Positions 44,553 to 47,547 of a DNA stretch of 64,000 nt are shown piece by piece. How positions within the stretch are numbered: the first letter of the stretch is position 1; every line of letters begins with the position of its first letter. Both the position numbers and the translations under genes were made by a program. The DNA is from Methanomicrobia archaeon (GTDB lineage: Archaea; Halobacteriota; Bog-38; Methanoflorentales; Methanoflorentaceae). A model generated the notes under the pieces. That model worked only from the letters and a program-made list of their open reading frames with translations, was not told the origin of the DNA and did no database searches. The stretch covers positions 1-64,000 of the forward strand of contig JACTTZ010000004.1 of NCBI GenBank assembly GCA_015660915.1, written 5' to 3'.

Positions 44553-44760
44553 CGGCGGGCACTACCTTAAATTAATCTTCGGAAAGTGCAAGCACGTAAT
44601 GTGACGTGGGCGAGACCCCTGTAGTTTCGAACGCAACGACTTTCACGGGCAGCAGGCGAATCGAGTTAACAGCTAGCTACTGGTACGAGCTAAGCCTAAC
44701 AGCAACCTGCTGTAGTGACACGTAGAAAGAAACGAAACAAGGCAACGAGTAGTCCGGAGA

Positions 44761-45395
44761 TCATTCACCGAGAAGATCAGGTCGGACCTTGCTTAAATAA
44801 TCAACAACAAAGCCCGTCACGACCGCCTCGACGACTGCTACAATCAGGTTAAGTATTACAATTTGGATCAAGTAGGGGAGCAACGCGACGCCGTGTAGTT
44901 CAATTCCTTGGATGCCTGCAACTACTAAAACGACAAGAAAAACGACGTTGCCGACGAGCAGTCCTGAGATCGCAGCGACTGCGCCTCTCGTGAACATCTC
45001 AAGTCGGCCTCTTGTCATTCTAAAGACATAGAAAGCTACCGCGATCTCACTCATGTTTCACAATTGTGTTAGCCCCTACGAGCCCCCATCCTCCGACCGA
45101 CGGCGGCGCTTAAGAGGTTCACAATGAAGATGACTAGCGATCCGATGCCCGGCCCTACTAAGATTCCTATCAGCGGAGTGAGGGTCATGTGAACCCCGCC
45201 TGCAAATGGGATATTGATTTGGAAGACTGCAAAAGAGACCGCTGCAAGCATCCCTGCGATAGCTAGCCGCTGAATTGCAATCGTGCGCCTTCTCGTTGCG
45301 ACGAGGGCAACGACAAGCAAAGCAAGAGCTAGCAACCACCAAAATAAGACCCATTGGATAGGGAGAACGCCGTCCGGAAGATGAATGTGTGCCAT
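44761..45395 (-). pseudogene. cbiM: CbiM-like cobalt/nickel ECF transporter component, split into two ORFs by two indels
   Basis: MAHIHLPDGVLPIQWVLFWW ... HMTLTPLIGILVGPGIGSLVIFIVNLLSAAVG | (frame 2) GGWGLVGANTIV | (frame 3) NMSEIAVAFYVFRMTRG ... . Confidence 0.82.
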
Positions 45396-45504: not shown

Positions 45505-47547
45505 TCACAGCCCGGGTAAAACTGTATCGAACGCCAAAGCACCGTGATTTTCTAAATCCATCGGTTCCATATTCAGCGTTCCAAATCGATGATATGGCCG
45601 TTCGTAAATGATGACTGGATTGGCAAGTGCCCTTTCGCCCCTCCCGAAAAGCGATATTCGTGCGTAACTGCGGGTTGCCTCATCCAAGGGATGATCGCCT
45701 TCCGCCTCGTCAAAAAGCCGATCTATGTCCCCTCGAGATCGAGGGTAGTGCATTTTATACCACTCTCGGGCAAGATCAAGCTGATTAACTTTTTTTTCGG
45801 ATGTTGTGCCCCTCACCATTATTTGTTTTGATTGGAGCGTTAGCGTGTAATCGGCGGCTGGTAATCCCCCCTCGTTGTTATGAAAAAGCGCTGTGTTTGC
45901 TTCATCTTTTTCGAATTGCGCTTCTCCCGCTGTCACACTTCTCGAAAAGGTCGCTATTATACCCACTGCAGGATCTTGCATCTGGCGTTTCAAGCGTTCG
46001 AATTGTGAGTTTTCGTAGAAAGGGACTCTTTTCCGAACAGAGTCCACGGGTTTCCCGCTATCGGACGACGGAAACGGCAACTGATCAAAGATTAGCAATA
46101 TCGGCCGATCATTATCCGCGCCAACTCGATCCTGCGCGGTGCGCACGGCACTTCTCACGTCTGCAACGGTCATTTCTGAATCTGCCTCGATGACCATAAG
46201 ATGGCGGGCTATTCGCCGGCTCAATCGTTCTCCTGCTTCAACCACACGCCTCAATATCGTTGCATCCGTCTCCGAGTCAAAGCCATTTTCGCGATACCGG
46301 GAGAGCTCCTCCCTATCGAAGCCGCAGTGTCGTGCTAGCGCGCGCTCCGTAAAGTCGTCCTTGCTTATTTCGCGACTCACGAATAATGTGGGGAAACAAC
46401 GTTGTGCGGCAAAGTCAGCACACCACGCACTGAAGTCCGTGGCCTCCGCGGCGGACGATGCATTGACTACGTATAACTTGCCTGGCTTCCAACCGCCTCC
46501 CAAAGAAGCGTTTAGCCACTCTGAGCGGGTAGGTATGACGCCGCACCTCTTAGAGAAAAGGTTCGTCATAAAGTCATCGAGATCTTGCTCAAAGAGGTGA
46601 TTTTTGTCGCATGCCGTGATCGACAAGGTGCTTAATTGCTGCCCGAGAGTTCTCAAGACGATATCAAGTGGAAGCGCGCTCGATGCCAATGCGATCTCTG
46701 CTTGACGGACGAGCTTTTGAGCTCGCAGCCGTGCTCCACGCGCCTCAATGATGCTCAAATACTCGATAAATCGGCCGTGCCGGCACGATGGGTGGCTTTT
46801 CAGCCGCTGCACGTATCGTTCTATCTCATCCACGTGCGGTCGCATTTCAGGGCTTCGAGAGAGGCTGGCCAAAATCGTGTTGCATCGAATCGGTCGGTCG
46901 TGATAGGCGAGGTAACGACATACGTGCCAGAGCACGCGATTGAGCGGCAAACAAGTGCCATCTCCGCATCTATACTCATCGACAAACCCCTCAGAACGGA
47001 GCCCCCGCCTTAGCCCTTCGCTGATACGCTCCGGATTGTTGAACAAATATGTGAGGGCATCCTTCTCCATCTGGGCCTCACCACTTTGGTGACTCGATTC
47101 GCCACACGGCTCTGGATAATAGTACTCACAGCTCCAGCCAGTGCACGCCCCACGCTCTCGGAGTTTCTTGCTGGACCAAATTTCCTCACAGCTCCAATGG
47201 TTCGCTTTAGGGTTATCTCGAGTTTGTGAAAGGCATTCCGCAAACTTCTGAACGTCACGTGCCCCCCGCACGCCACCCAAAGAGACGGCGTGCTTTGTCA
47301 TCGTCTGTGCCATTTTTATTCCTTGCACGTCGTTCAGCCCTTTCGTCACCACATACCGTACGAGGAGTGCGTGCGCCTTATCGTACGCCATATCAGAAGG
47401 CATACCGTAACGCAAAAGGTAACGGATACACGGCGGATGACGAATCCTTTTGCGAAAAGACTCCTGAAGCGGAAGTCCCATTTCTTCACTGGACACGTTT
47501 CTCACATCCTCGATCGCTAACGCACTCTCGAGCACGTACGACGCCAA
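45505..47547 (-). CDS. Putative primase-helicase-like protein: Cys-rich (Fe-S primase-like) N-terminus, DnaB-N-like middle, DnaB/RecA-like C-terminal core with degenerate Walker A
   Basis: 680 aa; HPPCIRYLLRYGMPS ... HWSCEEIWSSKKLRERGACTGWSCEYYYPEPCG; YLFNNPERISEGL; GGGWKPGKLYVVNASSAAEATDFSAWCADFAAQRCFPTLFVSREISKDDFTERALA; PILLIFDQLPF. Confidence 0.6.
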   Translation of the reverse strand: MASYVLESALAIEDVRNVSSEEMGLPLQESFRKRIRHPPCIRYLLRYGMPSDMAYDKAHALLVRYVVTKGLNDVQGIKMAQTMTKHAVSLGGVRGARDVQKFAECLSQTRDNPKANHWSCEEIWSSKKLRERGACTGWSCEYYYPEPCGESSHQSGEAQMEKDALTYLFNNPERISEGLRRGLRSEGFVDEYRCGDGTCLPLNRVLWHVCRYLAYHDRPIRCNTILASLSRSPEMRPHVDEIERYVQRLKSHPSCRHGRFIEYLSIIEARGARLRAQKLVRQAEIALASSALPLDIVLRTLGQQLSTLSITACDKNHLFEQDLDDFMTNLFSKRCGVIPTRSEWLNASLGGGWKPGKLYVVNASSAAEATDFSAWCADFAAQRCFPTLFVSREISKDDFTERALARHCGFDREELSRYRENGFDSETDATILRRVVEAGERLSRRIARHLMVIEADSEMTVADVRSAVRTAQDRVGADNDRPILLIFDQLPFPSSDSGKPVDSVRKRVPFYENSQFERLKRQMQDPAVGIIATFSRSVTAGEAQFEKDEANTALFHNNEGGLPAADYTLTLQSKQIMVRGTTSEKKVNQLDLAREWYKMHYPRSRGDIDRLFDEAEGDHPLDEATRSYARISLFGRGERALANPVIIYERPYHRFGTLNMEPMDLENHGALAFDTVLPGL

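Follow-up and report, generated by a model that had tools for sequence, protein, structure and literature searches.

A chromosomal PriL-DnaB-like protein of one archaeal genus with a putatively dead motor, probably domesticated from a plasmid replication protein

The window analysed here, a 64,000-nucleotide stretch of an archaeal contig, carries a gene whose product derives, with high probability according to the sequence comparisons, by domestication from a plasmid replication protein in which an AEP primase, a PriL-like domain and a DnaB helicase are joined. This reading follows from plasmid-borne relatives which share the order of the parts over 93% of the archaeal protein and possess an intact motor where the archaeal protein does not; both the primase and the motor appear to have been lost before the genus radiated, that is before its last common ancestor. 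As an overall explanation, covering this descent, activity that does not depend on ATP and an accessory role in the host cell, we give it a compromise probability of about 0.5. Domestication of a viral or plasmid protein had been one suggestion of the first-pass annotation of this DNA, and its plasmid version is upheld by the cyanobacterial plasmid homologs and by a motor loss that became fixed under purifying selection.

The open reading frame of 680 codons described in that annotation lies where it had been placed and on the same strand (Table 1). In the ortholog from genome G001 the open frame can only be started at the GTG equivalent to position 47496, and the protein of the window therefore probably also begins at this codon, which would shorten it to about 663 residues. 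Pfam family PF03796 (DnaB_C) matches residues 349-474 with 28.5 bits against a cut-off of 27 (E 1.2e-6), and the DnaB-like helicase family phrog_19 of PHROG matches residues 166-490 (E 3.1e-11), while NCBIfam gave weak DnaB matches alone, far under their cut-off. These matches bear out the proposed DnaB/RecA-like core and the proposed DnaB-N-like helical middle, the latter being covered by the phrog_19 span, and the protein can be described as a predicted DnaB-N-like region followed by a RecA-type C domain. In a profile search of the PDB the best match was the DnaB structure 4zc0 (E 4.7e-21, for a mixed profile that includes the plasmid proteins). A full-length AlphaFold model, of low confidence (mean pLDDT 41), was matched by Foldseek to whole DnaB chains over about 400 columns with E of about 1e-8, at TM-scores of only about 0.2-0.38 and an rmsd of about 20 A or more; owing to these low scores the matches are consistent with a DnaB fold rather than proof of one, and they add little beyond the sequence. 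Neither Pfam nor a reading of the frame located an AEP domain in the protein, which opens directly at its cysteine-containing head.

Table 1. Positions of the features discussed, in the window unless a plasmid locus is named
Feature	Position	Strand	Basis or remark
Whole open reading frame, motor-dead PriL-DnaB-like protein without AEP (predicted)	45505..47547	-	680 aa from TTG
Probable coding sequence from the conserved GTG	45505-47496	-	~663 aa
PriL-like four-cysteine head (putative), residues ~36-146	47110..47442	-	invariant cysteines, PF04104 in one relative, hhalign
C40 codon, HPPC motif	47428..47430	-	sequence and alignment
C120 codon	47188..47190	-	alignment
C135 codon	47143..47145	-	alignment
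C140 codon	47128..47130	-	alignment
DnaB N-terminal/linker-like helical middle, residues ~157-325	46573..47079	-	phrog_19 span; Foldseek on low-confidence model
DnaB-type RecA core, residues ~337-600	45748..46539	-	PF03796; PDB profile search
Degenerate Walker A, NASSAAEATD for G-x4-GKST	46435..46464	-	alignment
Walker B-like strand PILLIFDQL, aspartate kept	46078..46104	-	alignment
Lost KNR arginine-finger region, FGRGERALA opposite VKNRGGKLG	45613..45660	-	alignment
Plasmid AEP-PriL-like-DnaB proteins adjoining PolA	L009 5214-7829; L010 2706-5333; L011 5122-8127		annotated only as DnaB-like helicases

The gene was sought by protein search in 60 genomes, seven of the genus and 53 from the rest of the phylum. 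It is present in six of the seven genus genomes, i.e. in that of the window and in five of the six others, with long matches at 57-59% identity; the ortholog of G003 is partial and lies at a contig end, and G005, with a completeness of 61%, is the only member of the genus that gave no match. No ortholog was found in the 53 other genomes, and when 394 genomes of the phylum were searched with a profile, only two partial matches to the core came up outside the genus. PriL sequences in the phylum sample have a haloarchaeal and methanogen-like appearance, which points to Halobacteriota, and the genus may belong to the GTDB class Bog-38. We read the genus as one of peatland archaea known from metagenome samples (SPRUCE, fen_3).

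Since the closest relatives over the full length are encoded on bacterial plasmids, the contig might be suspected of being misbinned or of being bacterial contamination. The neighbourhood makes this possibility practically negligible: in the window and at two further loci of the genus (L042 and L043) the gene lies in the chromosome between MetRS and zinc-ribbon genes on one side and genes for a membrane protein, an AdoMet synthetase and an adenosylhomocysteinase-like protein on the other, this order being conserved in separate assemblies, TBP and other archaeal housekeeping genes lie around it and GC contents match (0.525 vs 0.551). Among its neighbours no cas genes were seen.

In a plasmid search, all relatives extending from the head into the core were cyanobacterial plasmid proteins. 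The best of them is encoded on plasmid NZ_CP084099 of Cyanobacterium sp. Dongsha4 (93% coverage, 24.6% identity, 2e-29), and others are found on NZ_CP149438, NZ_CP138349 and NZ_AP014819 (C. aponinum, Geminocystis). The three plasmid genes that were read encode proteins of 871-1001 aa in which an AEP-TOTE domain (3e-14 to 5e-7) is joined to the segment with the four cysteines and to a DnaB_C domain that is intact (6e-32 to 1e-36), and each is directly followed by a gene for a 3'-5' exonuclease/DNA polymerase (PolA). Together with PolA, this AEP-PriL-like-DnaB protein may form a replication module of Geminocystaceae plasmids that is so far undescribed; around three other cyanobacterial plasmid PolA genes no AEP-helicase partner was detected. 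The archaeal protein begins where the AEP of the plasmid proteins ends. PF22548, the AEP of the plasmid type, is absent from all seven genus genomes, and no remnant of AEP or PolA was found in the window or at L042 and L043. Phage matches are limited to the DnaB part, and the viral contigs searched held no full-length relative.

A second AEP and a PolA located together on one contig were considered as the missing part of the plasmid module and rejected, the loci being a bacterial-type NHEJ cluster (Ku, LigD ligase and LigD primase; L056 on G000:C25, L057 and L058) and the link being unsupported. The 3'-5' exonuclease/PolA on the same contig as that cluster has cyanobacterial proteins as its best plasmid matches, at about 40% identity; the PolA of the genus sits on another contig beside Ku/LigD and not beside the gene studied here.

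Of the five cysteines that the first-pass annotation had compared with those of Fe-S primases, C40, C120, C135 and C140 are invariant in an alignment of five genus orthologs and three cyanobacterial plasmid proteins, whereas the fifth, C148, is not conserved. The four follow the order known from PriL, PPC...C...C...C. Domain PF04104 did not match the head of the window protein itself; it was detected below threshold (E 0.0085) in one cyanobacterial plasmid counterpart. Comparison of the head with archaeal PriL by hhalign gave E 1.7e-4 with a probability of 49%, confined to the N-terminal 45 columns. The AlphaFold model of the head, being of low confidence (mean pLDDT 52.6), matched no PDB structure with E below 6, and a PDB search with the head profile yielded chance ankyrin matches alone. 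The order of parts in the plasmid relatives, the cysteine pattern, PF04104 and hhalign together make a modest case that the head is related to PriL. Its four cysteines could bind either a 4Fe-4S cluster or zinc. In archaeal PriL, the histidine and arginine of the motif NISHSARF contact the 5' triphosphate of the primer; neither is kept in the window head, and DNA binding by it is therefore not assured.

In another genus of the phylum, locus L044 (2418-5021, minus strand) encodes an 867-aa PrimPol-PriL-like protein (PF09250 5e-16, PF04104 1.6e-7), the C-terminal part of which is probably a helicase. It is likely to be the replication protein of a mobile element, and it indicates that PrimPol-PriL fusions do exist among archaea of this phylum.

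With regard to the motor, the motifs are named below as in DnaB helicases. The P-loop of the plasmid proteins (e.g., GAPPASGKST) is opposed, in a gap-free alignment, by NASSAAEATD in the window gene, and other orthologs have TASCDTEATD-type sequences at this place, one of them with a one-residue gap. The loss of Walker A that had been noted for the window (ASSAAEATD) is thus general, GKST being replaced by EATD in all five genus orthologs that cover the site. Alignment with the plasmid proteins indicates that the sensor SDINK, the RDSFKIAHSAD loop (L2, DNA-binding) and the KNR finger have also been lost in the genus. A canonical Walker A in close, well-characterised homologs had been named in advance as evidence against an unusual protein; it is absent within the genus and occurs only in the distant, uncharacterised plasmid relatives.

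These losses agree with the inactive ATPase that had been put forward as one option, and the protein very probably works without ATP. The rival reading, a host helicase or primase that is still functional and independent of a P-loop, could draw on the preserved DnaB scaffold and Walker B aspartate, yet appears highly improbable given the missing P-loop lysine and serine, sensor, L2 loop and KNR finger, and given that the catalytic-glutamate position (SYEMS), still E in the window copy, is G in four of the five orthologs. Each of the seven genomes of the genus moreover encodes PriS and PriL, and MCM was found in all but one of them. The gene does not, therefore, replace these proteins, and a role as the primase or helicase of the host was ruled out.

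Over the whole gene, pairwise dN/dS is 0.27-0.37 for all pairs within the genus, at dS of up to about 1.0. In comparisons with the window gene, the segment with the former P-loop ranks among those under the strongest constraint (0.13-0.15). Neutral simulations (n = 200, no indels, d = 0.86) accumulated at least 16 stop codons in every run; the window gene and two complete orthologs (G001 and G002) contain none. Purifying selection keeps the reading frame, and the gene is more than a chance frame. The motor loss is common to all orthologs covering the site, which means that selection acted after it. The constraint is weaker than on the housekeeping neighbours, the value of 0.31 being the highest of nine genes compared (neighbours 0.07-0.21).

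Directly adjoining the gene is a cbiM-like cobalt-transport gene (window 44758-45395, minus strand) split by a frameshift. Frameshifts or stops interrupt it in the window, G002, G004 and G006; it gave no match at L043 and is apparently a pseudogene across the genus, so that an intact frame and a decaying one can be usefully contrasted in a single neighbourhood. In G004 (L002) the ortholog of the gene under study has an in-frame TGA at its residue 499, where the sister genome G006 encodes arginine; either the gene is truly decaying there or the assembly is at fault.

The TGA of G004, the relatively high dN/dS and the neighbouring cbiM pseudogene would all fit a slowly decaying relic, that is an integrated plasmid gene whose function is weak or was recently lost. 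We regard such a relic as unlikely: the window, G001 and G002 have kept an open frame at dS of up to about 0.9, every pair gives a dN/dS of about 0.3, and conservation is unusually high at the four cysteines and in the former P-loop segment.

The main alternative is also unlikely. It holds that the protein is a dominant-negative factor, a dead subunit that poisons the replication of incoming plasmids or viruses of the AEP-PriL-DnaB type, or occupies their origin, and so provides immunity. Descent from the protein of such a replicon, with catalysis lost and the scaffold kept, would suit this role, as would the fastest evolution among the nine genes, which is expected in conflict. However, neither the genomes of the phylum nor the viral contigs searched yielded such a plasmid or virus, no defence family model of PADLOC matched the protein at E up to 1, and the gene lies among housekeeping genes rather than in a defence island.

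Under the reading preferred here, domestication into a host accessory protein, the product would neither prime nor unwind. Its head would keep a metal centre and bind single-stranded or primer-template DNA, and its DnaB-like part would be a platform for oligomerisation or for partners, the whole assisting the host in priming or in fork repair without enzymatic activity, in a role resembling that of PriX. An accessory role of this kind is proposed tentatively, at somewhat less than even odds. More doubtful is the specific proposal that selection maintains a host protein which, having lost both enzymes, uses its metal-binding primase head to recognise primer-template junctions or to block replicons of the ancestral type; such a protein would be a class of pseudo-helicase undescribed in archaea.

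What makes the case worth attention is that an archaeal lineage appears to have domesticated a replication protein of the bacterial plasmid type, the enzymatic parts of which are gone while the scaffold and the cysteine head are under selection. If the proposed role is true, it would offer a clean system for studying the function of a primase accessory domain, or of a hexameric helicase with a dead motor, in the absence of catalysis, and for testing whether cells turn replication proteins of mobile elements into exclusion factors. It also draws notice to AEP-PriL-DnaB plasmid proteins so far annotated merely as helicases.

Among known systems, archaeal PriL (DNA_primase_lrg) has in common with the protein the PPC...C...C...C pattern in a helical domain; sequence similarity is otherwise weak, and the host encodes a genuine PriL besides. 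Bacterial and phage DnaB share the DnaB-type C-terminal domain (DnaB_C, phrog_19) and the DnaB-N-like middle, but of their catalytic motifs those examined appear lost in the genus, apart from the Walker B aspartate and, in the window copy only, the catalytic glutamate. As to the CRISPR-associated primase-polymerases (CAPP), the AEP and head of a plasmid relative match the PrimPol model of PADLOC (3e-16), and the PriCT-like domain of MpCAPP has conserved cysteines (PMC8211822); the archaeal protein differs in having no AEP domain and no cas genes beside it.

In PolpTN2 an AEP is fused to a PriL-like domain for which a 4Fe-4S cluster is predicted, and in some PrimQH proteins an AEP and PriCT or zinc domains are fused to RecA-type helicases including DnaB, with zinc-binding domains at the position of the head described here (2018 survey, PMC5862659). 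In the part of that survey drawn on here these are catalytic primases of mobile elements, and a motor-dead, AEP-less, chromosomal form such as the archaeal protein, which does not have the AEP catalytic domain of the PrimPol-PV1 supergroup, is not described there. In the literature covered, which is incomplete, no description of an archaeal protein with this architecture was found: its parts are known, and it is their AEP-less, putatively motor-dead and chromosomally fixed combination that was not encountered.

The nearest known proteins remain those of the Geminocystaceae plasmids (pDongsha4a, pAL20118a and pGM04), whose sole annotation is 'DnaB-like helicase C-terminal domain-containing protein'. 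Homology to the archaeal protein begins at the HPPC motif and extends almost to the C-terminus, the four cysteines and the DnaB-type core being common to both. The plasmid proteins possess in addition an AEP at the N-terminus, a Walker A, sensor and KNR finger that are intact, and a PolA neighbour, all of which the archaeal protein does without.
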